A stretch of DNA of 64,000 bases from Macrocystis pyrifera (Eukaryota; Sar; Phaeophyceae; Laminariales; Laminariaceae): contig JASSKH010000014.1 of NCBI GenBank assembly GCA_031763025.1, positions 13,818,022-13,882,021 of the forward strand, read 5' to 3'. Below, piece by piece: positions 1,573-58,033 of the stretch. The notes below the pieces were generated by a model. That model did no database searches. It was not told the origin of the DNA and saw only the letters and a program-made list of their open reading frames with translations. The position numbers were made by a program, and so were the translations under genes. Each line of letters begins with the position of its first letter. Positions within the stretch are counted from its first letter, which is position 1.

Positions 1573-1738
1573 CTACATGTCGAGGCACTTCTCGACGTCG
1601 CAGAAACAAGCGGTGTTCAGTGGCGACCCCTCCCCTGCGCCAGCGGGCACCTCGTCGCCCCACCACTCCTTCCAATTGGCTTCGCCAAGCTTGACATTCA
1701 GTTCGACGTCTTCCATGAACAAGCTCTTGGGGTACTCG
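1573..1738 (-). CDS. YHS-domain membrane protein, exon 3 of 3 with stop codon
   Basis: This last exon has 166 nt and encodes the end of codon 187 through residue 241, with TAG at 1573-1575. The acceptor is CTGCAG (1739-1744). The AG left by exon 2 plus the first base here makes a Ser codon, giving Leu-Tyr-Phe-Phe-His-Ser-Glu-Tyr-Pro-Lys, a natural continuation. Next come an acidic, Trp-rich stretch (NWKEWWGDE) and a tail with three Cys (residues 231, 233, 238). The three exons total 726 nt, exactly 242 codons, with no internal stop. In the 3' flank, a minus-strand AATAAA lies near 1157-1162, about 410 nt past the stop; whether it is used is unknown. Confidence 0.82.
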
Positions 1739-1744
1739 CTGCAG

Positions 1745-2949
1745 CGGGCCCAAACATTCAACGGTCGGCAAAACAGGAGAGCGGAGAGCGGAATAGAGGG
1801 GATGGGGAAAGAGGAAGCACGGAGGGGAAGGAGAAAGGGGGAGTGGGGAAGCGGGAGGGGGGCAGGCATTTACATATGTGAGTACAGTTGTTGTTAAATG
1901 TGATGCCACTGGGACCAACACAAGAAAAAGGAGAAATAAAAAACTAGACGCTTTAAGCGTCGAGATATCGAAACAGATTATCTTGACTAGGAACTATACG
2001 TGGGTTACCACCGCCACCCAGCACCGCCTCCACAACAACCATACCAACACCAACAGGCCTGTCTAGCTCCGCTCCGCAGTCGAAACCTCCCCCTTTCTGT
2101 TTTAGCTTGTCGCTTGCATGGCGTAATCTCTCCCCTCGGCCCGTCACTGCTGCTGATGCTGCAATGGAGTAAACAAGAAAACAAAATAGGTGCCACACTA
2201 CCACTACCATCCACCACACACCACCAGGCGTCCAGCCTAGCCCCGCTCGACAGCCGACCCCTCTCCCTTTCTGCCTTGGCCTATGCTAGGTGCGTATGCT
2301 TTAGCGGCTGTTCGGCTGTTTTGCTTCTTCCCTGACGGACAGCGGCCTTGAAAGAACAAGGACACGGGATCTCGACTCTCTTTGTCGGAAACGCCTCACG
2401 AGAAATGTATCTATTACTTTTTTTCTCCAACACTTATGACACATTTTGCGATTGTTTATATACCGCATGTATCGTTTGTATAGAAACCATGTATGAATAT
2501 TGACTATTGACGAAATATGATACATTGGAGAACGGAAATCCGAGGCTTGTGGAGGGGTACAGAACCGTTGTGATGTTCGAGAAAAAGGAATGAGGAAGAG
2601 GGGCATGAAGTTGACAATGGGTGCAATTGGTCAAACAGCGAATTGCAATCCACCAGGTACGTACTCAAGATGTTTGCTTCGTACAAGAGATGAGTTTGTG
2701 TCGACCGCAATTTTAGTCCTTCTATTCTTGGCCAATTTTTCGTTTAATGCAAAATAGACGCCGAATTAATGAACAAATATCAAAACAGTACAAAAACAAT
2801 TTCCCCGAACGTGATATGTGCCTAAATTTAATATACTTTGCACAATTCAAACGCACCTTTTGGGTGATTATTGCGTGTAGAGCATGTGTTCGCATGGTGT
2901 CGGTTTTGTGCATTGCAAAACAACAGGTGAGACCATAAAACGAGTATAA
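1745..2949. other. Intronic sequence, nothing recognised
   Basis: This is mixed-composition sequence with G-rich purine runs near 1800-1865 just inside the intron. I found no domain, repeat copy or RNA gene. Confidence 0.4.
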
Positions 2950-3640
2950 AAATCACACTCTGGACGATTGCAACAGCATGTTGCTTCGACAATAGACGAG
3001 GGGGGGGATCTATCGATATTCATTACATTGTCCCCGACTATAGATTTTGGAAGGCGTATCGATAGATATCGTCGGCGACTGGTTATCCTACTGTTTGTCG
3101 ATCGATAGACAATGCGGGCACAATAGATTGTGCGAGAACGGACCGACGTCATCACGTGGAGACCATACGCTCGCACTCTCATTCGAAGATGACATTATGC
3201 ACAGATGTCGCTAGGAACTCGCGCACCAGGATATTGGTAATTAATGTAAAGTGGGTGCAGAGTTATGAGCTGCCAAGGGGGCACAGGAATGTCGGTGCTG
3301 GGTAGAGCACGCTGCTTCTAGTGCAGGAACATCTTCATAATGTTCCTCGAGTGAGTCGAGAGAAAGAGAGACAACTCGAGCGAGCGAGGGTCGGCTCCGT
3401 CTGCGACACAACTCAGCCCAGATTGCGACCAACACTAACCTGGTATGCAGATACGACTATTCTCCTGAAGGAAATTCCCAAAGCCCTACGTGCATCTGGC
3501 CAAAAACGATTCACAAACAGGATGATCCCTAAACGATACGCGTAACCGTGTATGATCCACAAACGAGTACATGTACGTTCCTATACTCTGCTACTCCATC
3601 ATAACTGTCGTCAACTTGTGTGCTCTGGAAGTTTCGGAAA
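2950..3640 (+). repeat. Dispersed repeat C, copy 1
   Basis: It shares a diagnostic series of segments with 60820-62670: ACACTCTGGAC, GACAATAGACGAGGGG, several TATCGATAG boxes, CCGACGTCAT, ACCATACGCT, GATGTCGC, and GCGCACCA followed by TTGGTAA. Relative to copy 2, this copy has about 360 extra bp (3240-3602) between TTGGTAA and ACTGTC. Either the segment inserted here or it was lost from copy 2. Confidence 0.7.
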
Positions 3641-3654
3641 TTCCAAGGCCTATT

Positions 3655-4020
3655 TGCTTATCACAGTGACTGAGAATCGTGACGGGACGAGACGGGACAG
3701 ATTTGACTCGTTTGGCGGGGCACAATAATGAAAAAGAGACGATACGATGAAGACAAACAAAGTTGGCGGGACGAGACAGCGGGTTCATAATTTCGCAACG
3801 GGACTTGCCGGAAACGTCAACGGGGCTGACTTTCACGACGGGACGGGACGGTATTAATATTTTCCCTCGACCGGACGGGACGGTATTAATATTTTCCCTC
3901 GACCGGACGGGACGGTAAATAGTTTTTTCCACGGCGGAACGGGACGGCAGTTCTCTTTTTTTCCGGCGGGACGGGACGGGAAATATTTGTTTTTCGGCTC
4001 AACGGGACGGTAAACATATT
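3655..4020 (+). repeat. GGGACGG-rich degenerate tandem repeat
   Basis: Many GGCGGGACGGGACGGTA-like units are separated by 20-40 bp of AT-rich spacer. One unit around 3840-3905 is duplicated almost exactly, including GGTATTAATATTTTCCCTCG. The same unit type recurs at 59590-60015. Confidence 0.75.
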
Positions 4021-4815
4021 TTTCTTCTTTCCCGCCGCAAGGTCGGTGCGGTTGTACGTGAAGAATTTCCCCCACATTGCTGGTTCCGCGAAGGCAGCCG
4101 TCCCGACGCACACGCTTTCGTCTCCATCCGCAGCCCAAGCCCCGAGAAGTGCTGCCACTACACGGGCGACGTCTTCTGATTTCTTCCCACTCCTGCCCCA
4201 AGCACTGCTGTTGCGTTGCCAGCTCATGGTGGCTGTTCTGATGGCTGTGCTTGCGCTGTGTTACCGGTGTGGTAGTGGAGGTGTGAAAGTGGTGGAGGTG
4301 GTGGCGGCGGCGGTGGGTGGTGATTCTAGTGCCGCTGCTCGTCGATCGACACCGTCCGTGAGATAGGCACATCTATGGCGTCCGCGTGCCGGTCACACAA
4401 ACGATGTTAGGAGACAGCACTTCTATCCCTCACAGACAGCAACTTTGCATTGACATGCTTTGACTGACACGAAACTACAAGGTTTTTGTGCAGAACATTC
4501 GTCCCTACGTCCTTGACAGCGCACGTTTAGCGTCCCGCTTGATGACATGTCTCATCTTTTCGGTACTGGTGTTGCCGTGAGTTGAGTGGTCTCTGTGCCT
4601 AATGTGTGTTGTGGCGAGCCTGTGGCAAGTGTTGTGTTATGATATCTGCCTTCAGTTGCGGGTAGAAATATGAGGTAGAAGATTCATAAAAAAATAATGA
4701 AAATCATTCAAAAAAGTGGAAAACACAACAACACCACCACAGGTATGCCACTCACTACTTGGTGGTTATTTTTTTTTTTGTAGATGGTGCTGTTTGTACT
4801 GTCAATACCTTCATT
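4021..4815. other. Intronic sequence, nothing recognised
   Basis: The first 350 bp are GC-rich with open frames on both strands, but no family resemblance. The rest is AT-rich. Confidence 0.35.
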
Positions 4816-4995
4816 TGAATAGATAAAAATAAATCATTATCCAGATGCTGATCAACACCAGCACAGCTTTTTCAGCTTAGAAGAACGAAGTATGTATATG
4901 TGGTGCGGAGCAATTTCATACCAGGTATTATATAAGATTAATACAATCAAAAGACGTCAGCTGTGAGTTCGACTGGTTCATTGACTAGTAGATAT
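4816..4995 (+). repeat. Dispersed repeat D, copy 1
   Basis: It resembles 59277-59455 over about 175 bp. Shared blocks are GATCA-ACCAGC, ATGTGGTG, CAATTT-ATACC, AGGTATTATAT and GTGAG-TCGACTG. Copy 2 has 11 extra bp inside the ATACC/AGGTATT segment. The reverse complement of its GTCAGCTGTGAGTTCGAC end also occurs near 21826, 22560 and 60720. Confidence 0.6.
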
Positions 4996-7900
4996 CGATA
5001 TACCAGTACAGTTCCGCATACCCATCCAAATAACAATATCCTATTACAAGGGTCCCTTCCAGGAAGTGCCTATTAATAGGGAAGTGGCGTAAGAACGAAA
5101 CAACACTCGGATGAAATACCTGCACGCCTGTTTAGAGCTATTGTTGAATACATCCCACCCAAAATTATTGGTGTGATGAAGAACACACACATATTCTAGA
5201 GGACAGAACTGCTGTACTGCTCCTGTCTGTGAAAATAGTGTGGAATCACTTGAAGTTGATATAAAAGGAGGGTTCCCGTAGGACGGGTACTGCTACAGTA
5301 TAGGCCCGCCAACACGAAAGTGTCCAATAAGAACATACCAGGGTAGTGCTCACTTCTTGGAGGACGCTAAGAAAATTGGGCTAAAAAAACGGCTTACTTA
5401 GTGGTGAAGTCTACACTAAATCCTACATAATACCCTATGCTCAACACGCGTTCTTCGATTGAAGCAGCACATTGCCGCCAAAAATAATTTCTGAATGACG
5501 GGGCGGCTTCTTAACCCAAAATCGTCGAATGCCAACCTCGTGCCGGAAAAAGACGTAATCGTATACTTGGGCCATAGGACTATTCATCGGGATGCACTTT
5601 GATTTTTGTTGAAGTCAGTTTTCGGGTGAGGTGTGGAGCTCCTCAAGTGAGGAGCCTCTGAAAAATTAGGGTGAACCTCTATCATCGTAGAGAACGCCTC
5701 TTAAGGTTGTTTAAAGATGGCGCCCCAATAAGATTCTCGGGCTTGCCCATACTTTACCCATTCGGTTGACTGTACTAGTTAATCCCACCGCTACACTACT
5801 ATTACTCTGTTCGCTGTGGAAACGTCCGGTAGCGTACAAATGCAGCAACAGTAGGGTAAACAACAGTTGAGTTGGTGCTTCGTCGTACGATAATTGTGCG
5901 AACGACGTGTACATGACATGTTGTATACCTCTGATGATATGAGATCGTACACGGGGGGCAGGAATCGGTTTCATTTCTTGGGTGCCTAGCAAAACAATAT
6001 ACAAAAAATGACTGCAGACTGCAGCAAGCCGAACAGCATTAATAGCTGTGTGCCTGGTGCGTAGCGGCCAACATGACAACAGCAACGAGCAACAAGTACT
6101 CGTATAGGCACATACTTGCTGACTGCTGGCCTCTCCGCTGCTGCGAGCATCGCACAACTGCTTCACTATTTCTGCTGCTCTGCTGCTGTGTATCTATAGC
6201 AAGCAGCAGAAGAGCACGTCGGCAGCAAGCAGTATAAATCAATTTTTGCCGTCACACCCAAAAGATGTCAGGAGACATTTCAATCAAGGCAGAACGTGAA
6301 CTGTCAAGAATGTAGGGTGTAGGGCCGAGTGTTCTTTACTAAACCCTACCTACAGCAGTAGTAGTAGTATTTTGGTGTCAGTCAAGGCATGTTGGGGCAA
6401 AATCGCTTTCCGTCACGGGCCAAAAATTATCTTTCATATGACTTCTTTGTTACACAGCAAGCACGGACAGGCTCTGATTGACCATCCACCCTACAGCGTG
6501 GCTCTACCACCCGTGCATGGTGTTGCCGACTGTTGATGCTGTAGTGAGCTGGCAGTGAGCACGCTCTTTGCGCTCCTGGTGTTGATATATGTTGCCAGAG
6601 TCGCACTTTTGTATGCAACAGCCCCAGCATGCTGTACGATCGCACGATCGAGCACAGCGTCAGAGAGAGAGTTATGTTGTTGGGGGATGATAGAACTCAG
6701 GACCAGAAAAGAGCAGGTGACCGCAGCAACACAGCGCAGACCTACGCGCATTAAGCCACGCCACACACGTGCCCGTGGCTGCCCACTGCGGCTGCTGCTG
6801 CTGCTGAACGGCAGGGTTATAGTGTTGTGTGCAAAGCTGGGTCTCTCTGCCCTGTTGCTGTAATGAATTGTCTGTTGCTTGTGTTGTGTGCTGTATTCAG
6901 AAGAAAAAAAAATGGTACCGGCACGTGTGTGACATGAAAGACCAAAAATATGACGACATTTCAGGGGTGCGTACGTACAAACTAACGAAGGCCTCTCGTA
7001 CTGAAACCAGGAAATTCGTCTTATCCACTCCCGCCGGGAAAAAAACTTTGAGCGCCCGCGACGCGCTCCAGAGTGCACGGATCGCGTCGAGACCTCGACC
7101 AATGGGTCCGGTGGGCTTCCTGTGTCCAAGCGTTTGGTGTTTTTTACCGAAAATTGCTTTGTACGAAAAAAAAAGTTAGCAAAAGTACGAAAATGTGACA
7201 AACGTGCACGTAAACATCTACTTATTGCCCTGAATCTTTTGGTCAAACACAAATAGGTATCGACAGACAAATCCCTATACCTATCCTAGAAAAAGCAGCC
7301 TGTTCTATACTGCTCTGAACATGATGATCGAACACATAGCTATCGATAGACCGTTCCACCTTTCTATCGCAGAGAGCACTAGGTATCGATATTCAACACC
7401 CCAACCTATTGACGGACCTATAGGCATATCCAATAGGCTCTTCCTGTCTTGTCGAGGGTGTGGTTTCTCGACGGCGGACTCCTTGAATTGAGACTTGATG
7501 TGAGATCATCAACAACAAACACCAGCGAGAATACCTGCATACGAGTATTTTGTAAATCTGGCGCTTTACACTAGTTTTTCAATAGGTCATTGAGTACAGA
7601 GCAAGCACTCCCTTGGAATAGCAGGCTTAGATTGTGCATACCAGCTAAACCAAACTGCTTCGCATTTTATGCTCTAGCGGTCGAACATCTGCGTTTTCAG
7701 TATTATAGGCTTTCTGATACGAGCAAAACATCATGGCAAATTCTCGCAGCGAAAAAACCTAAATCTAAGAAACGTCTATTAATAGCTGCACTATTAAATG
7801 GGAAAAAAAAAACGATGACTTTGTCACTCGCACGGGAACTACGCTACGCAAGGTGCAGAGGAAAGCTGCGGAGTGCGGTAAACATCAACCATTGGAACGG

Positions 7901-8177
7901 GTCCACCAAAACGCAACTTGGGGCACCCGATGCTGCCATTGCTTCGATGCACTCAAGAGGTCACAAGTCGTTTGTCAGCTAAAACATGGCGATGGAATAA
8001 ACGTTTTCAAATGAGAACGAGGACCTATTGAGGCGCGAAGTTACAGCAAAGTTTCGGAGCGTGAGCAAAAGCAGAGGGTTCACGGGGAAGCGAAACGCGT
8101 GTACCCCAAGCCGCGTCGGATACCGAGGCGGAGCAGAGACGGGTGCAAGAGGCACAAGTGGCAAGCCTGAAGGAGGG
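4996..8177. other. Intronic sequence, no gene recognised
   Basis: Open frames between 5.7 and 7.3 kb are unconvincing and show no known domain. A cluster of CTATCGATAGA-like boxes at 7240-7440 recalls repeat C. Exact CTATTAATAG sits near 5069 and 7784. Confidence 0.4.
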
Positions 8178-8469
8178 TGTTCGGAGTGCTCACGTACTTG
8201 GTGTATGGATTCATGTGTAACGGTATTTGGGAGTTCCACACAGGAAATATGCGTGTTTCTGTGTGGAACGGTCAGCGGGTTGGGACGTATCTTATCCGCC
8301 GCTTTCTCACTTCTTCTTCTTGTTCTACTTCTTCTTGTGTGTGTACTTCATGTTCTCCCCCCTTTCTTCCTTGTCTTGTGTATTCTAGGCGATAATATAT
8401 ATATACCCTGGAGGGGCTTCTACGAACTGACTCAGGCTTGGCCTATCATATCAGTGAGTGCATCGAACA
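8178..8469 (+). repeat. 5' LTR of the copia element
   Basis: It begins TGTTCGGAGTG, ends CATCGAACA and contains pyrimidine-rich sequence and a TATATATA run. Differences from the 3' LTR are a few C/T and G/A changes and one C-tract length change. No classical TGGTATCAGAGC-type primer site follows it. Confidence 0.9.
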
Positions 8470-8703
8470 CGCTAGCGTCTGCTCCAATTGGACGTACTTG
8501 CTGGTTGGGGCTACGCCGGGAGAGCAACTCCGCGTTCGAGGACGAGCGAGAGATTTACAGTTTTTTGGATGCAGAGGCCAGAGGGACCTCAACCGAGCAG
8601 AGGCACTGGCGACAACGAGGTCGACAGAGCCAGGAGAGCTACAGGAGTGGCGATAACAGCGGCAGCAGAGGCAGTCAGCAACGCCGCGGCAGAGGCCGCG
8701 GAT

Positions 8704-10630
8704 ATGGCTAGTAGCGCAGGAGCGCGAAACCCTGTTCCGCCAGAGGGTGGAACTGCTCCGCCAGAGGGCGGAGCAGAAACGAGTAGAAGGAACGAGGCTT
8801 CGCGGGAGGACGGAGCCGCAGGCCGCGATGATGAGATCGCCCGCCTGAAACGAGAGATGGCCGAGATGTCGCTCCGGCTGGAGATCAGAGAGGAGGAACG
8901 AACGAGGATGGAGAGGCTACAGCAGGGGGCTGGAGGAGGAATGCGCCCACCGGAGCCACATGGTCAACCAGGCACATTTCTAGTTGGTTTTGGTAAGCCT
9001 TCACCGAAACTTGACGGTAGTAAGGAGGGAAATTATTGTAAATGGTCGAAGCAATTTCTATCATGGGCTGTTACTAACACCTGCGACAATGTTTTGAAGG
9101 AAACTAGCGACCCGATAGTCTTGCAGGGCCCAAATAGAAGGAGTCAACAAGACCTCCATTACCGTTTCGGAACGGCAAGGGTAGCCGCTGCTCGCAGGGC
9201 ATACGAGGGTATCACCAACGCACTGACTAATTCGTCTCCGTTATACAAGATCTATGACATAGGCAGCCCTAGTCTTGCGATGGCCGAGGTACGTCGGCAC
9301 TACGTCCCAAGCGACGACCTCGACAAGCAGGCATACCAGAGAGAATACATCAATGCTCATATGAAAGAGGGGGAGGACCCCACCCTTTGTTTCGAGAGGA
9401 TGAGCATCATCCGAGAAAAGCTCTCCGAAGTAGGGATCCCAAAAACGGATCAGGAAGCCAACCTCCACCTAGTGCAATGCCTGACGTCCGAATACGAGGT
9501 GGGCAAGAAAATCCTGCAATACGCCCAGAACTTGACCCTCAACATGATCGAGGACCGGGTTCGCATAACGTACCGGGAGTTGGAAGCGAGCAAGAGGGAA
9601 ATGATCGATGGCTCAGCACAGGTCTTGATAGCCACAGGCGGAGGTGGAGCAGGTGGACAGGGGAGTTTCCCCGGTCCCAGCCCTGGCCACTACACGGGCG
9701 GCAGAGGTGGCACGGCGAGTGGTGGCGCCACTGGGCACTGGGGGCAGCAACAGCAGCAACAGCAGCAGCAGCAGCAACCGCAGCAACCACACAATCAACA
9801 TCAGCCACCGCGTCAACACCAATAGCAACACCAGCATGGTCAAGGCTGGGCAGGCCAGGACTGGGGAGGGGCACGTTCGGGGAACAAGAACGGGAAGCCG
9901 AAACAAAATCGGCAGAGGCAGGATTCGCACGCCAGTGGCGGCGGCGGACATCAACCATGGCCGCCATACGCCGGCCGCGGCGGAGGTGGAAACCAGTCGT
10001 GGCCGCAGGTACGCGACGCACGTTTCATCGGGCCCGGAGGACACCCACCAGGTACCGACCGAATGTACGACGCCGTCCGGTACCCCCCCCCCTAACCTAC
10101 ATCGGCCATAAGGCACCGAGCCGGGAATCCACGCCGCTGACCCTCGCCAAAGATGTCACAGGTGCGGCCGGATAGGTCATTTTTTGCGAACTGCCGCGCT
10201 ATCGTGACGTTGGTAGATGACCCGAATCCACCTCGTGAAGTTTACCAGAGCCACTTCGCGGCGAATACCGCGAATACCGCCCAGTCTACAACACCGCTCC
10301 TCCCCACCCCAGACCCCATTCCGCAGCAGCAGCCGCAGTACCAACAGCAGCCACTGTACCAGCCACAGCAACAGTCCCACCAGCAATCACAGTACCAAGC
10401 GCAGTATCAACAGCAGCCGCTCCAACAGCAGTCACAGTACCACGAGCCTCAACAGCAGCCATATCTTCAGCAACCACCGCAGTATCAACGTGAGCAACAG
10501 CAGTACTACCAACGTGAGCAGCAGCAATACTACCAACATTCACAGCAGCAGGCTCAACAGGCGCAGCAGGCCCAGCAGGCGCAGCAGGCACAGCAGGCGC
10601 AGCAGGCGCAGCAGGCGCAGCGGCGATTCA
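8704..10630 (+). pseudogene. Copia gag with zinc knuckle and Gln-rich tail, broken
   Basis: Gag is the nucleocapsid/capsid precursor of the retrotransposon. The frame is open from 8488; the ATG at 8704 starts an Ala/Glu-rich leader. A charged coiled-coil-like helix (about 8830-8925) follows, then a UBN2/Retrotran_gag-type region (about 8970-9590) and a Gly/Gln-rich stretch. A TAG at 9823-9825 interrupts a CAA/CAG-rich stretch in the frame that otherwise runs to 10093, and looks like a CAG-to-TAG change. A poly-C tract (10084-10092) then shifts the frame. At 10154-10196 a CX2CX4HX4C zinc knuckle can be read only across a one-base slip in a T tract. From about 10320 to 10630 the frame is dominated by Gln and Tyr-Gln-Gln repeats with a tandem GCGCAGCAG run. 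Confidence 0.75.
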
Positions 10631-10631
10631 A

Positions 10632-11003
10632 TGGATATCTAGGACGCAGAAGACTTCCACACTCTCCACGAGTGAAGCAGAGTACGTTGCGATGGCAGAG
10701 GGTTTCAAGGAGGCTCTTTTTCTACGGTCAGTGTGGCGTTTCCTGTTGCCTGATTTTGGGGATCCGTGCATCCAGGTTTTTGAGGACAACAAGGGTGCGA
10801 TCCAAATAGCGGTCAACCCTGTGACGAACTCTAACTCGAAGCACATAGATGTCCGCCACCACTTCCTGCGAGAACTTGTCGAAAAGGGAGAGTTTGAAAT
10901 CACGCATGTGAGGTCAGAATACGAACATGCGAACTTCTTGACGAAACCCCTTCCGAAAGACGCTTTCCGTTTCCACAGGCACTTCATCATGAACATGAGC
11001 TAA
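10632..11003 (+). pseudogene. Copia RNase H C-terminal fragment
   Basis: The frame reads Trp-Ile-Ser-Arg-Thr-Gln-Lys, then STSEAEYVAMAEG, then EDNKGAI, KHIDVRHHFLRE and a TKPLP motif, ending with a TAA at 11001-11003. These are the closing motifs of copia-type RNase H, which degrades the RNA strand during reverse transcription. The upstream part of RNase H and all reverse transcriptase are absent. The fragment joins directly to the Gln-rich gag tail in another frame near 10625, marking the internal deletion breakpoint. Confidence 0.85.
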
Positions 11004-11875
11004 TTTGTTTGTTTTGTTTGTTTTGTTTTTGAGTCAATTTTTATGTCTGACGAGGCCGATTTTTGTATCTTTCTGTGATTTGAGGGAATTCGAGGAAGAT
11101 ATCACAAATTTCATGAGATTTGAGAAGATAGTTTATGGATTTTATTGAGCTTGGAGGTCATGATATTTTATTGCTGAGATCTGAGGAGTTATTTTTTTTG
11201 GGCGATTTGACTTCATGCGGTCCTATGATTTGTGATTTAATTTTTGGGGGGGGGGGACGAGGGAGTGAATCCGACATGCCACTACGTACCATTCTGGTTT
11301 GAGTTGAGGAGTCGATCGTGATTCATGAGTGGTGCTTTTTATCCCGTTCTGTTGGGGCTGGAAGACTGCTGCACGTAGCAGGAAAGCTGAAATATTTAGG
11401 ACTACTGCATAACATTATTATACTGAATACGTATCTACGTACGTAACGCGGAATTGAAATCTGTAGTATACTAAGTCGACCGCACTAAACTGGGGCGTTA
11501 TTTCAGAGACGAAATTCTGGGGTTTTGTTGCCATTTGAGTGGATTTAGTGTGCCCCCTGTAGAGAGGCTATATCGGATTGGTGTTTGATTCAGATGGAGA
11601 GATAAAAAAAAAAGGGGGGGACTGTAGTACTATATAAATGATGCAAGGATTCGATTGATTGTTTTCTGAGATATTGAGGAGTTCCTTTGTGGGCTTTTCT
11701 GGGCTTGGCGGGCTTGATCTTTCTGCACAGTCGAGATTTGAGGAGTTGATTTCTGTTTTTCTCCGATTTAATTACTTTTCGGGGTTTGAGCAGCTGTTCT
11801 TGTGGTACTATTTTCTGAGATATGAAGATCAAGTAATTTTCTTCGTGAGATTTGAGACTTTGATATTTGTGTTTG
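11004..11875 (+). other. Copia 3' non-coding region
   Basis: This AT-rich stretch contains many TGAGATTTGAG-like short repeats. Poly-G runs at about 11247-11257 and 11620 follow T or A tracts. It has no coding sequence. It is interrupted by the gypsy element and resumes at about 20320. Confidence 0.6.
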
Positions 11876-12186
11876 TGTGGAGGACAGGTTTTGGGAAAGG
11901 TTCGTAGATTGGTCGTCGCACATGTTCCCATGGAAGATACATCAGAAGTGTTATCACATCTGGGAATCTTCGAGAAATAACCCGAGCCTCCTTGAAGTCG
12001 AGACAGGCCTTGTTTGCCCGTCCGAACTTTACTCTCTCGATCTCTCTCTTCTCCACGCTGCTAACCCAACGTTGAGGGCTCTCTCCTTGCCCTAAATATA
12101 AGAACGTAAAAGTGCAGCCCTCGGTAGCGGGTCCAAGCTACCACATCACTGGGGACCTTTGTGGCTCTGCGAAAGTAGGGGCGCCA
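11876..12186 (+). repeat. 5' LTR of the gypsy element
   Basis: It matches 19987-20319 with a few substitutions and indels. It contains TCTCTCGATCTCTCTCTTC and an AAATATAAGAA stretch that could be a TATA-type element. It ends GCGCCA immediately before the candidate primer site. Confidence 0.88.
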
Positions 12187-12188
12187 TA

Positions 12189-47095: not shown

Positions 47096-48008
47096 GTATG
47101 TAGTAGAAGCTCACAGCCCAGCTTTGTGCCCGTACCTTTATTTTTAATATATAATCGCATGAGAACTGGCTGTTGTACAGCAGCAGTATATGTTTCGTTG
47201 TTCACTCGATGCTCGTTCTCGCTATGCTCGCAGTATCGCATTCACAAACGAGCTTGCCGGGTCTCGATTCAACGGCGTGCGACTGGTAAGCGTCGATGCG
47301 CACAAAGATCGCCGGTGGCACGGCGTAGTGCGTCGGTGGAGTCGCCGTTGTTGAGTGCGACTTTCCTTGATGGTAATGGAGGATGTGGCTTGACAGGATT
47401 TGTTGGGTTCCCTTCATGTCTGCTTGATTTTTTTCGTGCGTGTTCCCCGCAAATTTCTGCTCCTGCCAGGCCTGTGTGAAAGGTCATCATCCCTACATGC
47501 ATTCCGGTTAGCGATAGTGCCTGCTGTTTCCAGCCGCGGAACACTACAACAAGCTGACGAGCGATGTTGCGTCGGCGACCTCGTGCTACTACTGTAGTAG
47601 ACATGATGTGCTCGTGGGGCGCGACCTGGTGCGAGTTCTTGCAAGGTGCTCTGCTGCTGTTGCAATATAGTAAATCAAGTTCAGGTCATCCTTGATAATT
47701 TCCCAACTTTCTGCTCGACGCCATTTTCTTGTGTCACTTTGGTACGAGATTGCGGGGCCATCCCAGAACCATGCGCAAAACTAGAGGGACAAGGAGCCGT
47801 GACCTTGACCTGTCTTTCCGGTGCTGAACCCCCACGGCGCACTCGTCATTTGCTTGTGTTGTCCTCTCGGGCGCAAGCCACAAAACAACGCCTTCAAGGC
47901 TCTGCTGACTTGCCCATTGCGACCACGATTCCCTTATCCCACCGATTCAACTGACCAGCCAATGACTACAAGAGCACTTAGACCATTCGTCTTCCTCTCT
48001 GAGTGCTT

Positions 48009-49200
48009 GTTGTGCATGGATTTGTAGCAGGCTATCGGCGATAAACTATTTTTGCCTCTAGCCCCGGACACGACGGTACGAGCATTTGTTGATGTTTGCA
48101 CCGTAGGGGTCCACCATACGAAAGACAGGTCAAGGTCACGGCTCCTCGTGCCTCTAGCTTTGCTCAAGGTGTCGGGATGGCCCCGCAAACTTGTACCAAT
48201 GTGCCACACAAAAAAAAGGTTTGGAGCATGCCTCTGTGTGGTTGTTGTGCAAGGACTTGGAGCAGGCTATCGGCGATAAAAAAAATTTCCTCTAGACCCG
48301 AAAACGACGGTACGAGCATTTGTTGATGTTTGCGCCGTGGGGGTCCACCATAGGAAAGACCGGTTAAGGTCACGGCTCCTCGTGCCTCTAGCTTTGCTCA
48401 CGGTGTCGTGATGGTCCCGCAAACTCGTACCAATGTGACACAAAAACAAAAGGTTTGGAGCATAAAGTTTGCAGAAAGTTGGACACAGCTGACAACGTGC
48501 TTTGAAAAATACGAGCAGGATTCCACGATTCCACCGTAGCCAATCAGTACAAGAGCAGTTAGTCTATTCGTATCTGCCCCTGTGTGGTTGTTGTGCAAGG
48601 ACTTGGAGCAGGCTATCGGCGATCGGCGATAAACAATTTTTGCCTTTTTGAGCCCCGGACACGACGGTACGAGCATTTGTTGATGTTTGCGCCGTGGGGG
48701 GGTCCACCATAGAAAGACAGGTCAAGGTCACGGCTCCTCGTGCCTCTATAATAGCTTTGCTCAAGGTGTCGGGATGGCCCCGTAATCTCGTACCAAATGT
48801 GAAACAAAAAAAAGGTGTGGAGCAGGAAGTTCGCAGAAAGTTGGAAAAAACTCACAGCTGAATGACGTGTTTTTTTTAAAATACAAGCACGATTCCATGA
48901 TCCCACCGTAGCCAATCAGTACTATTATACAGCAGTTAGTCTATTCGTATGCCTGTGTGCGGTTGTTGTGCACGGACTTGGAGCAGGCTATCGGCGATAA
49001 ACTATTTTTGCCTTTAGCCCCGGACACGATGGTACGAGCATTTGTTAATGTGTGCGCCGTGGGGGTCTACCATCGGGAAGACAGGTTAAGGTCACGGCTC
49101 CTTGTCCCTCTAGTTTTGCTCAAGGTTCTGGGATGGCCCGTAATCTAGTACCAAAGTGACACAAAAAAATGTTGTGGAGCAGAAAGTTGGACAAAATAAC
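48009..49200 (+). repeat. Four-copy tandem repeat in the foldback core
   Basis: Copies begin with TTGTGCA-GGA-TTG-AGCAGGCTATCGGCG at about 48009, 48245, 48591 and 48967. They continue with CGGACACGACGGTACGAGCA, GGGGTCCACCAT, AAGGTCACGGCTCCTCGTGC and AATGTGACACAAAAA. Copies 2 and 3 have an extra segment with AGCAGGATTCCACGATTCC. Confidence 0.85.
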
Positions 49201-49235
49201 AAGGATGACCTGAACTTAATTTAATATTACAACAG

Positions 49236-49516
49236 CGAGCCTATCAAGATCAATTTCGTGGCTTCAAGTCTCACCGAGTGCATGCTCGTAGGGACTTTTT
49301 CTTACATAAAACATTAATCAGCGGAAAGCGCGAGAGCGTGAGTTAGCTACATTCGATGAAAATCGACGAGCAGTGGGAATGCTGAAGCCTCTATGCGACA
49401 AAAAATATAGGCACGTACCGGGGGGGAGAAGGGACGACACCTGTGACCACGGCTTGTCCAGAACATCGCTGAGGGAAACCTCCTACAAGTTAGGTTGAAA
49501 AGTAAAAGTGACGATG

Positions 49517-49546
<30 letters not shown>
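49236..49546 (+). mobile_element. SINE-A copy, 5'-truncated, inside the foldback right arm
   Basis: It starts within the tRNA-like head (GAGCCTATCAAGATCAATTT) and ends in a ~30-nt A tail (49517-49546). The uninterrupted left arm gives the empty site: ..CAACAGC|AGCAGAGC.. with an AGC overlap. The SINE therefore inserted after the arms formed. Confidence 0.88.
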
Positions 49547-49547
<1 letters not shown>

Positions 49548-50088
49548 CAGCAGAGCACCTTGCAAGAACTCGCACCAGGTCGCGCCCCACGAGCACATCA
49601 TGTCTACTACAGTAGTAGCACGAGGTCACCGACGCAACATCGCTCGTCAGCTTGTTGTAGTGTTCCGCGGCTGGAAACAGCAGGCACTATCGCTAACCGG
49701 AATGCATGTAAGGATGATGACCTGTCACACAGGCCTGGCAGGAGCATATATAGACGGGGAACACGCACGAAAAAATCCAAGCAGACATGAAGGAGACACA
49801 ACAAATCCTTGTGAAGCCACATCCTCCATCACCATCAAGGAAAGTCGCACTCAACAACAGCGACTCCACCGACGCACTACGCCCTGCCACCGGCGATCTT
49901 TGTGCGCATCGACGCTTCACTAGTCGCACGCTGCCGAATCTAGACCCGGTAAGCTCGTGGGTAAATGCGATACTGCGAGCATAGCGAGAACGAGCATCGA
50001 GTGAACAACAAAAAATGTACTGCTGCCAGTTCTCGTGCGAGTATTTACCAAAAATAAAGGTACGGGCACAAAGCTGGGCTGTGAGCTT

Positions 50089-50560
50089 TAACCGTTGTTG
50101 TGTGACCCAAAACACGCATCCAGAGGTTAAACAACGCCGTCACGAAGATGCAATGACGCATATTAGCCCTCTATAGAGGAAAACACGCAACACCCTTCAG
50201 GTGTCAGATGTAGCAATATAACTTCCGCCAGAGAGAAACGTACGCAGAGAGGACATTATACTGCATAATACTATTAATACCAGGTATAAAGTATAAAGCA
50301 ACCAACACTCTCCAGGGGTTTTGTGACATAACAAAAATTCATCCAGACGCAAAACAACACCCTCCAGAGGATATACTAAAATAGAGCGCATAATGGAAAA
50401 CATGCAACACCCTCAGGGGTTTCGTGAAGCAATAACCCCCTCCAGAGGGAACGCGCACGTAGTACACCCTCCAGAGGACATAACACAGCATAATCCTGTA
50501 ATGTGTAAAAATGAACCAACAACCTCAAGAGATGTTTAGATGCGGGACACAGCCGGCATG
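50089..50560. repeat. Degenerate CCCTCCAGAGG-type repeats
   Basis: Recurrent boxes CCCTCCAGAGG, CTCCAGGGGTTT, CACCCTTCAGGTG and CATAATACT or CATAATCCT are spaced 40-70 bp apart. They resemble, in word content, the array at 56000-56836 at the other end of the 10-kb inverted repeat. Confidence 0.6.
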
Positions 50561-52224
50561 ATGTGCGTAATAAATGCACCTATTAATACTGTACACTACT
50601 ACTGCTGTTGGTACCTGGAAATATTTTGTCGCAGTTTGCCACCCTACTACGATTTACCCTGCACCCCTGCTACAGCTGTGCCCCACTGTATCGCCCTCGT
50701 GAAACTCAAGTAGTAGCGATACCGAGTGCTAGGCAGCACTGAGCCAGACAATGCACAAAAGCCTCTCGGATTAGCAACCCAAAACGTGTTTAGTCCCTGC
50801 ATCAGCAATCCTTCAGAAGGATATGGAAAACCAGAATTTATTCTGACGAACCGACTTGCAAAGTGCTCACACTCCACACTCTTCCAGACAAGTTATCACG
50901 AAGGCAGGCGGAAAGGCTTGTGATGGGGCTGACAACCCGACAGGCACACGTCACACAACCAGCAGAGGAGATCCACCTCCGAGTGAGGAGGAGAAGATTA
51001 TTGGAAGTGTCGGCTTCCGTTGGGCGAGCGGCGCGGCTTCTGCTGATCGGATCGGAGAGGCCATACCAGAGACATCGAAGAGCGTACTGTAGGTCTCCCG
51101 GAGATTTTCCCACGGGCGCCCTTTGAGTAGCGGCAAGGGTGAGGGCGGTGCATCCGCCAGTTGTGGCTCTCGCAAGGTGTGTGCCGTACTTTATGTTGGT
51201 ATCGCGTATGGAGTGAAGCAGGTCGTTGGCGCTCTCGTTCTTTTGCGAGAAGAGGGGGGCTGATTTTTTGCCAACAGTTTACTTTTTTCGCCGTTGGTGC
51301 ACGGTTGGCTGTTGGTGTGACAAAATTCAAATTATTTCGAGATCACAAAAAAGAGAGGCGACCTTTTGCGTTTCGAGCGCGTACAGCAGATGCCTAATCT
51401 TGTTGCTGCGCGCGTGTCGTACGACTGCACGTCCAACACATCTTACACCTGGTGAGCCTTTTTGACGTGCTCCTTATTTTTGGTGTAGCCGATGCAGTTG
51501 TCGTCGATTCCTTTCACATTTTTTCGAAGCACCAGGTATCACGCTGCATACGTATATATACAGGATACCTGTTACTGTATGTGATGTTTTACCAAAGAGC
51601 TACTACAGTTGTAAATGTGTCCCCTAAAATAGTCCCTTGGTGCTGGTTGGGACACCCCTGTTTGTGACTAAAAGCACAGGTACCAAGTACGATACATTTC
51701 TGCACGTATATATAGCCCAAAGACTGAACTTTAGATCATTATGAAAGACAGAAGGTTTGCCCTTGACTTCCCTGACTGACATCGAATTACGATTTATGGG
51801 GTGTAGTAGGGAACACCCCGGCCCACCTGGTACACCTTTGACAGCGCAGTTTCGATTTGCTTGGCATGTCTCCGACATCTTTGGTAGGGCCTGCATGGTA
51901 CCGGTGACGAAGCTGTAACATGGGTGATGTATTCCCTTGGACCTGGTATATAATACGTGTTCAGTATTTCATGTACCTCTCAGCTGCGAGAGATCGCACG
52001 TTTCTCAAACCTGTCTTGTGCAAGCTTGCTGTGATAATTTGATTGCGCGCGGGGTGTGTAGGTTTTACAGTTAGCGGTGTACCGAGTACATACGTACGTA
52101 CTGACTGTACGTGCTCAATCTGCCGTTTGCTTTTTATCGCAGCAAACTGGTTTTGGCAAGCTCTGATATACTACTATATAGCTGCTGCTGAGCATAGTTT
52201 TACGGTGTACCTTTCCTGAAGGCG
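50561..52224. other. Intronic sequence with one ankyrin-like fragment
   Basis: On the minus strand near 51125-51230 the frame reads ATTGGCTALTLAATQ, resembling one ankyrin repeat core (Gly-x-Thr-Ala-Leu-x-x-Ala-Ala). Overlapping open frames on both strands at 50860-51330 make coding orientation uncertain. Nothing else was recognised. Confidence 0.3.
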
Positions 52225-52375
52225 TTGCATTGTTTTTTTGCATCCCATTCATTACCCTTGCCCTACTCTCCCGCTCCCTCCCAGTAGTAGCTCAGATCCG
52301 AGTTCACATAGCGGGCGCTTCTCCCTCCTCTCCCACTGGTACGTGCCTTCATTTTTTATCGCGAGAATAATGCAG
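52225..52375 (-). mobile_element. SINE-F fragment (second tRNA-type family)
   Basis: The block order matches 53419-53575 (CTCCCTCC, AACTCAGATC-type, GGCTCCTCTCCCTC, CCACTG-GGTACG-GCCTT, TTTTTATCGCGAG). The tRNA-like head is absent. Confidence 0.5.
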
Positions 52376-53039
52376 CGTTTTAGGCCGTTTCCTATGCGGT
52401 TCGATTTTCGAGCTCCAGATTTTGATCCGATCGCATTTTCAGATGTGAACTTGGCAAATCGGAACAGTTGTCCAACGCGGAAAAACAGATTTATTACGCG
52501 TGCTGAGATTCGAGCAAACGCCAAGACCAAGTGCTTTTGTTGTGGTCTGGTGCCGCGAGGAGACGCGCTGGGTTCGCTGCCCTTCGCGTAGGACCCAAGC
52601 GTCCGAGCCAAGGCTGACTGCCTCTGGTCAGGCGGCGAAGAGACGTAGCGCGTGCGCCAGAGTCAAGCTGTCTTGGTATTTTGTGTTCCATCATGTGTCT
52701 GACTGCTGCTGCTGCTGCTGTGCTGCCGTGCAGCAGTCTAGTTTACGAGTACGTATCCACGGAGAGGTGCGCGTCAAGTGCGCTTGTCTTGGTCTGTAGG
52801 CTCGAGCCAGCGCCAACCGACTGTAGTCTGGCCACGGAGGGACGCGCCGCCCGCCGACCGCGCGTATGGCGCGAAGCAACGTCGCTATACAGCTGTCTTA
52901 CCATCCAACTCATCTATCGTTCTGCTGCTGTTTGCTGTCGTGGATAACCTCTTGAATTTAGAGAGCATGCCATTTTTCGACTTGAAAATCTGATGACCCA
53001 AGTCGTCGGATTCTCATTTCGGAAAAATTCCGGTCGGAC
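52376..53039. other. Intronic sequence, nothing recognised
   Basis: A short CTG tract is near 52703. Open frames lack known domains. Confidence 0.35.
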
Positions 53040-53303
53040 TTTGCATATTTGGACTGCATAAGCAGGGTCATTTATTTTTGAGATCGAAAAAAATAAATCT
53101 GAAGCTCAAAATCGAACCGCACAGGAAACAATCATATTCCCTCTTCGACTCGCGTCGAACTTTGCAAGCTCACGCCACAGCAGCAGTAGACGCTTTCTTC
53201 AATTGTACATGCTTAAGAAAAGATCCGCCCTGGCCGGGGTTCGAACCCATGACCTCGGCATTAGTAACCTCTCGGTCTAACCAGTAGTCCACCGGGGGCG
53301 CGG
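53040..53303 (-). mobile_element. SINE-F copy with tRNA-like head
   Basis: On the minus strand it starts with GCGCCCCCGGTGGACTACTG (A-box-like GTGGACTACTGGTTAGACC) and has a B box GGGTTCGAACCCC. A body with TCGACGCGAGTCGAAGAGGG follows. The acceptor-stem pairing is imperfect, so it is not a functional tRNA gene. The tRNA part differs from SINE-A. Confidence 0.65.
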
Positions 53304-53418
53304 GTCAAGTTCGTCCTGCCCAAGTCTCTGCACAGATTCTGCGGGTCCAAGATGCGGTGGGTGCAGCTCGTACATCCACCACTAATCTGGACACGACAAT
53401 AGCAAAAAATAGGTCCAG

Positions 53419-53850
53419 CAGTGTTTTTTTCTTTCTTTTCTTCCTATCTATCATCTGTCTGGCCCTAAAGCTCTGTCTCCCTCCCCTTTTTAACTCAGAT
53501 CTGGGGTTACAATGCAGGCTCCTCTCCCTCTTCCCCACTGTGGTACGCGCCTTGCATTTTTATCGCGAGCAGATTTCATCAGTTTCTTCCCTCGTCGACT
53601 TGAGTCGAATTTTGCTCGCCCACGCTATTAACCCTCTTAGAGACTCAAAACCCATCCTTGTACTGATTACAAGTAATTATGTCCCCAACACCGGGTTTCC
53701 AGTTGTAAAGGGGTTAAGCGCTCTTGGCAGTTGTTGGTGTCCCTCAACGAAAAGCCGTGTGCTCGCGCCGGGATCCGGACTCGCGACTATCCAACGTATA
53801 CGAAGTAGTATTCTAGGCTTTATCTCCTACTCCGCAGAAGCGACCTGTTT
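53419..53850 (-). mobile_element. SINE-F-like copy, degenerate
   Basis: A T/C-rich tract at 53421-53445 (tail on the minus strand), then GGTACGCGCCTTGCATTTTT with ATCGCGAG and CTCGTCGACTTGAGTCGAAT. A diverged tRNA-like head carries GAGTCCGGATCCCGGCGCGA near 53765-53785. It shares the TACGCGCC-TTTATCGCGAG segment with the SINE-A body. Confidence 0.5.
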
Positions 53851-55999
53851 TTTTATCCGACCGAAAAATTCACTTACATACGATATATCACTCTTCCTTC
53901 GTCATAATTCACTGTTTGGGATCCTTCGATAACGCCGGTGTTTGCCGGCACTTTTGAAGAATCATTGCGTTTTAGAATACCGGCATTGTAGCGGGCACCG
54001 GCATTGTTCGGGCACGATGCCATTATTCGCGATTTGAGACTCTTCTACTACTATAATGCCAAGCACAGTTGAAGAATAAATGCACATACACCACCGTATC
54101 GAACAAGCAGCCCAGAATACGCTGCTGTGATGCGGGGGTAGAATGAGGCGCATATGGTGGGACCCTTGCAACGTAAGATATGTACTCGCAATGAGTAAGC
54201 AGCAAAGACGTGTGTGGAACACACACCTGCTCAGTAGTGGTATGGTGCACTGTACACTACCAGTAGTATACTCCAGAAAGTTCTGCTTGTACTAACAATA
54301 CCACTGCTGTGCACTACTGCTGTTGTACTGCTGTGTTCTGATATCAATATTATACCTGGAACGTACTCTGACAATAGTCGCAAAGTATGGAATACTATTC
54401 TGCACCACAGCAGAATTGACTTGTCTTGTTCCTGTACTGCTGTACATGTCTTGTGTACTCGTATCATGCGAATGGTAATAAAGCCGAGTTTCAGAGCCCA
54501 CGTTTTTGGTGCCGTGCCGTGTTCATGTATTTTTGTCTGTTTGTCACGTCTGCCCAGTGTGGCCCCATACATCCCATACTACTGTATGTCTTGCTCACAC
54601 AGAAGAGAATCCCACAAAAACACAACATGCTGTCATCTACTTCGATAAACCAGCCCAACCCGGAATCGAACAGACACCAAAACGGTTGCACCACATGCTG
54701 TTTCTCTGGTGTTTGTTGGTGTATGCATAGATGTGCACAGCAAAAGTAAGACATGGGGATAAACACTGACCCGGCATTATTGAGGGCCACCCAAACGGTG
54801 GCACTGGCATTATACAGGGTGCATCCCTTACAATGCAGATTCGTCATTGTATAGGGCACTCACATTACTGAGCCGGGACCACTAGTACTCTACCATGATA
54901 TTTTCCGTCACTTGTCCATCGAAGTACCTGACCCGTGAGGTTGTGAACGCCTCCTGACCCGACCCGACTCGCTAGTCAGCGCATAATCTGTGAGATGTAG
55001 TTTTGGTTTCATTGGTGCACTTTTCAGATGGCCGTTCGAATTTATTATTTTTGTGATTTCTGTTAATTACCACGTCCTTTGATTCCACGTACGCTTCCCT
55101 TGCTGCGACCCTCCAGGGGATTAATGCCTACGACAGGTATATTTGTTTTATGTTCTCAGTGACCACGCGTGTCCTTCGCGCTTCCCTTTGGCTCTGCTGT
55201 GCTTAAACAACAGGCAGTTTAGCTGCCGACCAGGAAAACGAGGGCGACCAAGATAAGAGCGACCATGACGAAAAGGGCGACGACGACGACAACAGATGCC
55301 ACGGCGACAACAACGGCGACGAAGACGACGTCGAACCCAGTACGGATGGATCCAGCGCGTAGAACGGCAGCGGCGGCATTCGAGGCGGCGGGCATTCTCG
55401 ATTCGGACAGCGCTAGACCGGGCCCCACTCTGGAATAGAGTACGCGTATTGGCGACTGAGCACGTTTGTTTTTGTCACGAACGTCGATGGTAAATTGACG
55501 TGTCCACGTAGGTCGCGTTGCTGCGTCTGTATATCTTACCTATGTGTTGACGGTCTCTTTCAGTCGTTGTACTCGTAGTATAGTAGGAGTAGTGGTTAAA
55601 TAACATGATATAGGTGAATATTTTTACGTGTAATATAACGTCTAGACACCTGGGGAGGCATGTCTGATACGGAGATGCACATGAGTAGAGAGAGCGAAAT
55701 AGGACCGATATTGAAGCTTTCCATTTAAAAGAGACATCAAGGCCAGACGGGCGTACACTTGAGCGTACATAAATCTGGTTGGGAACCGAACGGCCGGCAA
55801 CAGTAATAAACTGCTGCTGTGATCTGTGGCGAAATGTTTTTTTTAAGTTTTTCTTCCCGCCCGCCTTAGAGCTATGAACAAAGATGACAGCTTGGAAGCG
55901 TCGTCGAGGTATGGAGGCAGATTGTCTATATTCAGAATCTTTACGAGTATAATAGTCTAGTGAGGCCGCCAAGGGAGCAGATTGACCAAATTCTGCAGA
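53851..55999. other. Intronic sequence, no gene recognised
   Basis: Short CCGGCATTG repeats occur at 53935-54015 and several ACTGCTGTA words at 54300-54450. At 55219-55428 the minus strand has a 69-codon frame with a very hydrophobic Val/Ala/Leu end, created by a GAC/GACGAC-rich tract; I treat it as low complexity. Confidence 0.4.
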
Positions 56000-56836
56000 G
56001 GTATAATAATTTCACCTATTTGCTTCGCTCTGCAGGGTTTCGAAGATTCGAATTCCTGAAAAGGGAATTAAGGCCACGCCATATTGGGGTGTTTGTGCTG
56101 ATTTAAAATCCCCGAGAGGGTCTTCGATTATTTAATTACCCTCCACAAGATAGTCTGCCGAAACCCTCTAGCTAGGGGGTCATGTTAATATTTGTGTCCT
56201 GTACAGCAGGGTTTCGGTGGGTACAAAATCCTGCACATGCTTTACACATTACCATGCTGGGGGATTATTGCCATCGCGACACCCTCCAGAGGGCCGTCGA
56301 TCATTTCAATACCCTCCACAGTATTTCTCTCAAAAACCTTCCAGGGGGTAGAGTTAAGATCTATATCCTGTCCAGGGTTTCATAGATACGAAGTCCTGCA
56401 CAGGATTTTTGCTTTACCATGCTGGGGGATTATTTTCATCGCGACACCCCCCAGACGGCCGTCGATATTTTTAATACCCTCGACAGGAATGTCGTAATAA
56501 AAACGTCCAGGGGGGCGAGTTCTCTTTTGTTTCCTGTTCAGGGTTTCATGGGGACGAAATCCTGCACAACATTTTCTCATTACCATGCTGGGGGATTGTT
56601 TCCATCACGGCACCCCCCAGAGGGCCGTCGACAATGACAATACCCTCCACAGGAGTGTCAGCAGAAACCCTCCAGAGGGACCGAGTTGGTTTTTGCTTCC
56701 TCTGCAGGATTTTGCGGGGTACAAAATCCTACGCAGGATTTCTCATCATGCTGGGGGATTGTTTTGTTTAAAGAATTCTCTAGAGGATTCGTTGAATGAA
56801 TCCTCGGAGGATTTACGGGGTACCCAAATGGCCACG
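56000..56836 (+). repeat. Tandem repeat, ~165-bp period, with nested palindromic words
   Basis: CATGCTGGGGGATT marks unit starts at 56253, 56418, 56584 and 56747. Each unit holds CATC-CG-CACCC-CCAGA-GGCCGTCGA, AATACCCTC-ACAG, AAA-CGTCCAGGGGG and CAGGGTTTC with AAATCCTGCACA. Short self-complementary words (CCCTCCAGAGGG, AATCCT..AGGATT) suggest local hairpins. Confidence 0.8.
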
Positions 56837-56837
56837 T

Positions 56838-57142
56838 GTGTTCTGCTACTGCAGCAAAGCAGTAGTACTCGGAACACAGAAAATATCAAATCATACAACG
56901 CGACGAGGACATCGCCTTAGCATGCTAGTAACAGAAGCAGGCGGGGATGCCGCAGTCATTCCCTCGCAGTGTGGGTCAAGAGCTCTGCCGTAGACGAGAG
57001 CCTCGTACTGCTGTGCTTTGGCATGCTACATGCCAGCCCTATTTCCCAAAAAAACAAGACGGAGGAAACTGGATATTGTTGATTCATCCTGTTTCATCTA
57101 AACTCGACTTTTCATACCTAGAAATCGCCTCCCCCCCAGCGC
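56838..57142. repeat. Right arm of the 10-kb inverted repeat
   Basis: It is the reverse complement of 46797-47095. It lies between the 165-bp array and the SINE at 57195. The outer ends of both arms meet a GGCGATTTC-type sequence next to a G/C homopolymer. Confidence 0.85.
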
Positions 57143-57194
57143 GTTTTTTTTTTTTTTTTCGGTCTTATTGCAAGTGATCTATAAAATGCATACC

Positions 57195-57533
57195 GGCGTC
57201 CCCGGTGGCTTGGTGGGTGGTCCGCGTGCCTGTCAAGATCAATTTCGTGGGTTCAAGTCCCACCGAGTGCATGCTCACAGGGACTTTTTCTTGCATAAAA
57301 AATTGATAAGCGGAAAGCGCGAAAGCGTGAGTTGGCTACATTCGATCAAAATGGACGAGCAGTGGGAATGCTGAACCCTATGCGCGACAAAAATAAAAGG
57401 CACGTACCGGGGGGGAGAAGGGACGACACCTGTGACCACGGCTTGTCCAGAAGATCGTCGAGGGTAACACCTCGTACGAGTGGGCTGGGAAGTAAAAGTG
57501 ATGGATAAAAAAAAAAATGAAAAAAAAGAAAAT
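57195..57533 (+). mobile_element. SINE-A, full length, reference copy
   Basis: A short interspersed retroposon transcribed, by analogy with the class, by RNA polymerase III. The head (57195-57275) has an A-box-like TGGCTTGGTGGG and a B box GGTTCAAGTCC inside a perfect 5-bp T stem (GTGGG/CCCAC). A ~230-bp unrelated body follows, then an A-rich tail to 57533. It encodes no protein. It sits in intron 1, about 90 bp past the exon 1 donor, in the opposite orientation to the gene. Confidence 0.9.
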
Positions 57534-57625
57534 ACCTGGTACCTAATAGTGCTTTTCACAGCAGCAGCAGTACGGAGCCGCCTTGGCTTCAAATGAGTGA
57601 TGCACCCACAGCGACCCTGTCTCAC

Positions 57626-58033
57626 CTCGAAAATAGCCTTGTTTTCCTCGGAAACGAACCAAAACTTGTACCCGTTGTAAGTAGCCTCGTGCTGCTCCGT
57701 GCCGTACATGGCCGGCTGGTTCTCGGGAAGCGAGAGATAGGAGACCAAATCTGCGCCCTTCATCACGGGATCCCCAGTAAAATTCTCACTGCACTCCCAT
57801 GTGTGGTGCCCGCTAGTATTCGTGGAAACAAAATTGCTGTCGCGCTTGCTTGCTCCTTGCCGCCCAGACAACCGGCGAGGGAAAAAGCCCGCGGTCCTCA
57901 CCGAGACCACCAAGACCCCCACTGCAAGCAGCAGCGTGAACAGGAACCCCGGCCAGGTCGATCTCTTGGTTCGTTTCTCTGCCGAGTTCGCTGAGGGGAT
58001 GAGAAAGTCCTTCTCTCCGGACGTACTGCTCAT
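57626..58033 (-). CDS. YHS-domain membrane protein, exon 1 of 3
   Basis: This is the first coding exon: 408 nt, residues 1-136, ATG at 58033 with A at -3. Residues 28-50 are strongly hydrophobic after a basic stretch, so the product is probably a signal-anchored single-pass membrane protein. Residues 88-136 start the YHS domain, with the motif DPVMKGADLVSYL and then a Y-N-G-Y-K-F-W-F-V strand. The exon ends after a Glu codon at a GTGAG donor (57621-57625), phase 0. The open frame runs past the donor, but that stretch loses family resemblance and enters a SINE, so it is intron. Exons 2 and 3 are 27.5 and 55.9 kb away on the same strand and complete the domain. YHS domains occur in metal-handling and many uncharacterised proteins; the role here is unknown. 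No promoter motif was recognised upstream. Confidence 0.85.

Follow-up and report, generated by a model that had tools for sequence, protein, structure and literature searches.

In the passages cited here, introns that carry mobile DNA are described on very different scales. The mean intron of Saccharina japonica is put at 1,203 bp (PMC6507550), and transposons make up 20.1% of the intronic sequence of Ectocarpus, where the intronic copies are reported to be shorter and more degraded and only young genes are suggested to tolerate longer ones (PMC12477816). Y-linked genes of Drosophila, with satellite-bearing introns and a tiny coding share, exceed 4 Mb (PMC11207136). Here we describe a locus of the brown alga Macrocystis pyrifera in a window of 64,000 nucleotides (positions 13,818,022-13,882,021 of the 14,129,973-bp scaffold C194, contig JASSKH010000014.1 of assembly GCA_031763025.1), in which three short exons of a YHS-like coding sequence are spread over a genomic span of 56,461 bp. 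The sequence of this locus (copy A) and of its relatives indicates that it is, in all likelihood, one protein-coding gene whose introns, like those of its sister copies, swelled separately after the copies parted. Intron inflation by mobile DNA is a known mechanism of which this gene is a new example; what is new are the sister copies, the evidence of separate intron swelling, and a recent insertion in copy B. A literature search on brown-algal genomes and introns, partial in its coverage, returned no report of this gene.

Gene structure and sister copies

Copy A is encoded on the minus strand (positions without a scaffold name are those of the window). Exon 1 (57626..58033; 408 nt) begins with the ATG start, contains codons 1-136, ends in phase 0, and encodes an N-terminal hydrophobic helix and the first half of the YHS domain. 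It is separated by intron 1 (30099..57625, minus strand; 27,527 bp; GTGAG...CCAG; phase 0) from exon 2 (29947..30098; 152 nt), which holds the second half of the domain with the GGFC motif (Cys150). Intron 2 (1739..29946, minus strand; 28,208 bp; GTAAA...GCAG; phase 2) then leads to exon 3 (1573..1738; 166 nt including the stop), the C-terminal part with the motif NTACFCxVExCxD. The joined exons amount to 726 nt, that is, 241 codons and a stop without internal stops, and the GT...AG borders, consistent phases and single open frame are those of a spliceosomal multi-exon gene. A sequence-only reading had proposed three same-strand segments with GT/AG borders, phases 0 then 2 and 242 codons without an internal stop; each of these particulars was recovered, the 242nd codon being the stop.

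A search of the whole genome (537,376,219 bases in 223 contigs) returned 21 matches, 12 on C194, eight on C126, and one on C196 that was disregarded (E 4.6). The C194 matches form four triplets, each in exon order 1-2-3 and on a single strand, with none missing or extra. Besides copy A, these are copy B (C194:13,796,153-13,759,876, minus strand; span 36,278 bp; introns of 18,814 and 16,714 bp), copy C (C194:13,706,182-13,739,593, plus strand; span 33,412 bp; introns of 14,156 and 18,530 bp), and copy D (C194:8,940,074-8,951,105, plus strand; span 11,032 bp; introns of 7,928 and 2,375 bp). All four have open frames, the same phases and GT/AG borders, and their exon lengths differ by multiples of 3 only. 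Copies A, B and C cluster 254-424 kb from the end of C194, with the exons of all three within 170 kb. Between copies B and C stands a tandem array of 6.3 kb (C194:13750619-13756953), its units being about 0.73 kb long.

The eight weaker matches on C126 belong to diverged copies, which are interrupted at both of the positions where the C194 copies are. The gaps between exons are about 3.05 and 0.39 kb in one of these copies and about 18.7 and 0.99 kb in another, and a third yielded exons 1 and 2 alone, separated by about 3.9 kb. The YHS genes of this region (C126:1578001-1688000) form a diverged family that stands closer to the proteins of Ectocarpus and Scytosiphon and whose introns are mostly shorter. 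Intact single-locus copies, which the sequence-only reading had named as evidence for scattered duplicate exons, were sought in the same search; none of the 21 matches has joined exons.

Database homologues bear on the exon joins. P0001, a 242-residue protein whose source contig measures 1,091 bp, shows 67% identity over 99% of the copy A protein and crosses both joins without interruption. We take its source tag, 'lgn', to denote an assembly of raw reads; P0001 may thus derive from a transcript or from a genomic copy that lacks introns, and either origin would imply that a member of the family is spliced. Since P0001 spans both joins and all four C194 triplets keep order, strand, phases and borders, these sequences identify the joins as real for the gene family and not the product of chance. 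Furthermore, seven exon 1 homologues (P0002-P0007 and P0009) read past the same donor, with FEVRQ in six and FEVRV in P0009, and P0016 is exon 3 alone on another contig with intron-like residues ahead of it. Two relatives bear algal names, Ectocarpus fasciculatus and Scytosiphon promiscuus, and no relative was confirmed in the viral contigs that were scanned. The tree of exon 1 joins P0002 and P0003 to copies A and B at 99/98 support and P0007 to copy C (82/80); copy D, 97% identical to P0004, lies in a weakly resolved part of it. We read copy A as one gene, and not as scattered exons, because of the uninterrupted homologue, the three sister three-exon copies, and a C126 family cut at the same places. 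Together with intron ends that are homologous and intron bulk that is not, this evidence supports the single gene with retroelement- and satellite-inflated introns that had been proposed.

Selection on the coding sequence

Pairwise NG86 omega values of the coding region were 0.42 for A-B, 0.41 for A-D, 0.59 for A-C, 0.59 for B-C, 0.48 for B-D and 0.53 for C-D. In neutral simulations with equal transitions and transversions and all change placed on one branch, omega was as low in none of 500 runs for A-B, in one of 500 for A-D, and in 23 of 500 for A-C. The frame remained free of stops in 36 of 2000 runs for A-B, in 16 for A-D and in 6 for A-C. These comparisons of coding sequence point to a protein under purifying, though relaxed, selection, the weakest case being A-C. 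Just upstream of the copy A ATG, 140-300 bp align to copies B, C and D at 73-83%.

Comparison of introns between copies

The introns of copies A and B match mainly at their ends. For intron 1, the parts that align in place are the 5'-terminal 67 bp and roughly 3 kb at the opposite, 3' end; for intron 2 they are 141 bp of 5'-terminal and about 1.9 kb of 3'-terminal sequence, aligned in order, and copy B has a further 10.6 kb inside the matching 3' part. Between the aligned 5' and 3' parts of intron 2 lie 26.2 kb in copy A versus 3.1 kb in copy B. Other matches between the introns of the two copies are dispersed repeats. As in transposon-inflated introns, the bulk appears to be mobile and satellite DNA that is not in place in the homologous introns. 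The synonymous distance between A and B is 0.29, at which shared sequence should still be alignable, and consequently most of the intron sequence appears to have been gained or replaced after the split of A and B. From these alignments we infer that this applies to most of each intron, and that the gains occurred at differing points.

One such event is the arrival of a young Copia element in intron 1 of copy B (C194:13788006-13795568; 7,563 bp; domain RVT_2), which lies 154 bp past exon 1. Its 514-bp long terminal repeats (LTRs) are identical and GCCCT stands at both flanks, its border having been set at TG...CA, 4 bases inside the BLAST borders. Given the identical LTRs, this growth of the intron is recent.

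What fills the introns of copy A

Intron 2 contains a satellite array of 5.76 kb (23993..29753) that starts at base 194 of the intron and has a unit of about 87/174 bp. A 351-bp piece of it gave 406 matches in the genome, with 24 of 233 candidate places scored and at least 17 contigs among the matches listed; arrays of this satellite are spread over many contigs and not confined to a single site. The intron also contains a Copia-type LTR element of 12.6 kb on the plus strand (8178..20786), with LTRs at 8178-8469 and 20496-20786 that are 97.3% identical. It carries gag (8476-9825) and a remnant reaching 11003 that is presumably RNase H-like, a name given from a motif and not matched by such a Pfam family. 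The flanks, GAGGG and GAGGA, agree in four of five bases. Inside it lies a Gypsy-type LTR element on the plus strand (11876..20322; LTRs 11876-12189 and 19987-20322, 90.8% identical) with gag, reverse transcriptase, RNase H and integrase domains. The LTRs of this inner element (90.8%) are more diverged than those of the outer one (97.3%), the opposite of what would be expected from simple nesting. The two elements may have been mobilized together as a composite, or conversion may have acted on the outer LTRs.

Intron 1 carries a dispersed 335-bp repeat (57198..57532, plus strand) about 90 bp past the exon 1 donor, together with whole or partial relatives at 49235-49541, 41571-41897, 36221-36572, 32989-33159 and 30577-30855, six members in total. 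The genome offers 2,906 candidate places for this repeat, and the 40 that were scored gave 40 near-full-length matches of 96-100%, including 57198..57532, and 2 short pieces. We call the family only SINE-like (SINE, short interspersed nuclear element) because ARAGORN gave no tRNA gene in the window. The proposal that retroelements, SINEs and a 6-kb satellite had inflated the introns is therefore sustained for the retroelements and for the satellite, and is softened to SINE-like for the SINEs. Overall, 50% of intron 1 and 42% of intron 2 of copy A recur within the 182-kb cluster or copy D. Outside the parts aligned to copy B, the remainder of these introns appears to be largely retroelements, the 335-bp repeat and satellite.

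A nested host gene was not identified by the Pfam scan of the window, which is blind to exons of fewer than 95 codons. The scan covered 125 of 172 open frames (at least 95 aa, not counting frames with centers in 23.6-29.76 kb or with strongly skewed composition) and returned one collagen-like match (E 0.0034) and one weak OTU match (E 0.0022). Six of the 47 frames outside this batch had been scanned earlier, and the other 41 are mostly frames that overlap one another within LTR elements, over exons or in simple repeats. An Rfam scan gave no family at gathering score. Outside the gene, the window contains a 262-bp tandem duplication with 95% matches (570-1083) and a 43-bp minisatellite (62129-62407).

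The encoded protein

The copy A protein matches NCBIfam NF041384, the YHS domain-containing (seleno)protein family, over residues 91-210 with 73.5 bits against a cut-off of 70. The Pfam YHS family (PF04945) reaches 28.2 bits, under its gathering score of 30.3, and an exon-by-exon genome search with it found nothing at E 0.001. With one score just below its threshold and the other above, the label 'YHS-like' given by the sequence-only reading is apt. P0001 scores 85.9 with NF041384, and the Ectocarpus and Scytosiphon relatives score 63.5 and 65.4, under the cut-off. A profile search produced 5,331 matches, and the named organisms among the best 120 of these are bacteria; note that the query already included bacterial rows.

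The cysteine of the GGFC motif, Cys150, is invariant in 65 aligned sequences. GxU is given as the selenocysteine motif of the NF041384 family in the cited part of a review (PMC13188914), and by our own placing Cys150 would fit the selenocysteine position. Its codon is TGC and no in-frame UGA stands at that position, so that copy A does not encode a selenoprotein there. On the basis of sequence, the protein is the Cys form of a bacterial-type family, which it resembles in the domain over residues 91-210 and, by this placing, in a GGFC Cys that would stand at the GxU place. Unlike the selenoproteins of NF041384, it is eukaryotic, has Cys for selenocysteine and adds an N-terminal hydrophobic helix. 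Its C-terminal Cys motif is a further addition relative to NF041384, common to the Ectocarpus and Scytosiphon proteins.

AlphaFold predicted a helix at residues 26-50 of P0001 that is likely to fit a membrane anchor; the mean pLDDT (predicted local distance difference test) of the models was 49 with 8 sequences and 64 with 65. A search of PDB structures with the P0001 model gave no match at E <=0.001, the best having E >=0.4 and including cilia entries and toluene monooxygenases. The sequence profile matched two cilia-protein chains at E <1e-10; no fold is claimed from any of these matches. A redox or metal-binding role would be conjecture, suggested by the family and its conserved Cys.

Alternative explanations

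The explanation we favor is that at least four intact copies, forming one family, inherited a common three-exon structure, and that LTR retroelements, the 335-bp repeat and satellite then built up separately in the introns of each copy after the copies parted. Ancestral introns would have been smaller and would have reached 14-28 kb in copies A, B and C near the scaffold end. Exons, phases, borders and a short flanking stretch of intron would have been kept while the intron bulk was free to grow, and copy A would be transcribed over its full 56 kb, with ordinary spliceosomal removal of both introns.

Several observations weigh against this explanation. Large introns also occur outside the C194 copies, with one C126 intron 1 apparently of 18.7 kb. 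P0001 is nearest to copy D (82% overall, versus 68% to copy A), and the joins it supports are therefore those of the family and not of copy A itself. Exon 2 of copy A is about equidistant from B, C and D (identity 0.82-0.83), with exons 1 and 3 nearest B. Omega values of 0.4-0.6 are relaxed, the comparison with copy C having 23 of 500 neutral runs as low, and function may conceivably have been lost so lately that no stop has yet arisen.

This last point leads to the reading in which copy A died recently, its exons being an intact relic and transcription or splicing through 28-kb repeat-filled introns no longer possible. We consider it unlikely. The relaxed omega (0.42-0.59), the existence of three intact sisters, one of them compact (copy D, 11 kb), and the satellite and LTR elements inside the introns are all compatible with such a death; however, copy A has no stop and no frame shift, keeps all four splice borders, has omega values under the neutral expectation versus B and D, and shows the conserved upstream sequence described above.

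A different possibility concerns the cause of the enlargement and not the integrity of the gene. Intron length might itself be kept or favored in copies A, B and C because it delays or damps expression, as is suggested for other genes of 10-80 kb in the cited part of PMC11207136. The contrast between six introns of 14-28 kb in copies A-C and those of 0.4-8 kb in copy D and most of C126, where the intron of about 18.7 kb is an exception, would be in keeping with such selection, which we hold to be improbable.

That the exons are scattered duplicates, pieces of neighboring copies, or segments spliced across copies is scarcely credible. The three copies have their exons within 170 kb, A and B share a strand, which would allow read-through from A to B, and exon 2 of copy A lacks a clear nearest relative. 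However, the 12 matches of C194 leave none missing or extra from four ordered, single-strand triplets, and this reading was set aside given those triplets, the common intron positions and the lack of a joined-exon copy among the 21 matches. The uneven identity per exon, with exons 1 and 3 closest to B and exon 2 closest to no one copy, suggests some exchange of sequence between copies. Finally, a false join or expansion in the assembly, conceivable in a repeat-rich region of scaffolds that the cited part of PMC10498591 describes as Hi-C assemblies of contigs whose N50 is given as 1-1.7 Mb, has next to no likelihood and was set aside, since neither the window nor the surrounding 182 kb contains a run of N, hence no marked scaffold join inside, and three copies show similar enlargement.

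Separate swelling of the introns in each copy of one gene, as favored here, would make this family a natural replicate, with one three-exon layout in at least four intact copies of a single genome and spans of 11, 33, 36 and 56 kb. Expression could be compared among them, as a test of whether long introns are costly or slow gene expression in a brown alga. Genes of this kind, as the locus also suggests, may come out in pieces or be lost when a gene finder sets a low limit on intron length.

Comparison with known systems

As a yardstick within the same genome we used the Cpn60/TCP1 genes, whose 54 exon matches leave 44 gaps; in 23 of these gaps the flanking exons are neighbors in the model. These 23, all from one gene family, had a median of 1,069 bp, a mean of 1,749 and a maximum of 8,417; the other 21, the largest of 10,347 bp, were dropped, as further exons or model overlap are possible there. 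Against this single family the introns of copy A are far above the usual length. Long introns bearing transposons are shared with genes of Ectocarpus and Saccharina, as these are described in the passages cited at the outset, from which copy A differs in introns of 27.5 and 28.2 kb, more than 20 times the Saccharina mean, and in the presence of long LTR elements within them. Consequently, 28-kb introns are extreme relative to Cpn60/TCP1 and Saccharina but not among eukaryotes in general. Unlike the gigantic Y genes of Drosophila, which in the account cited above exceed 4 Mb, copy A measures 56 kb and lies on a 14.1-Mb scaffold; it shares with them a small coding fraction and introns filled with repeats and satellite.

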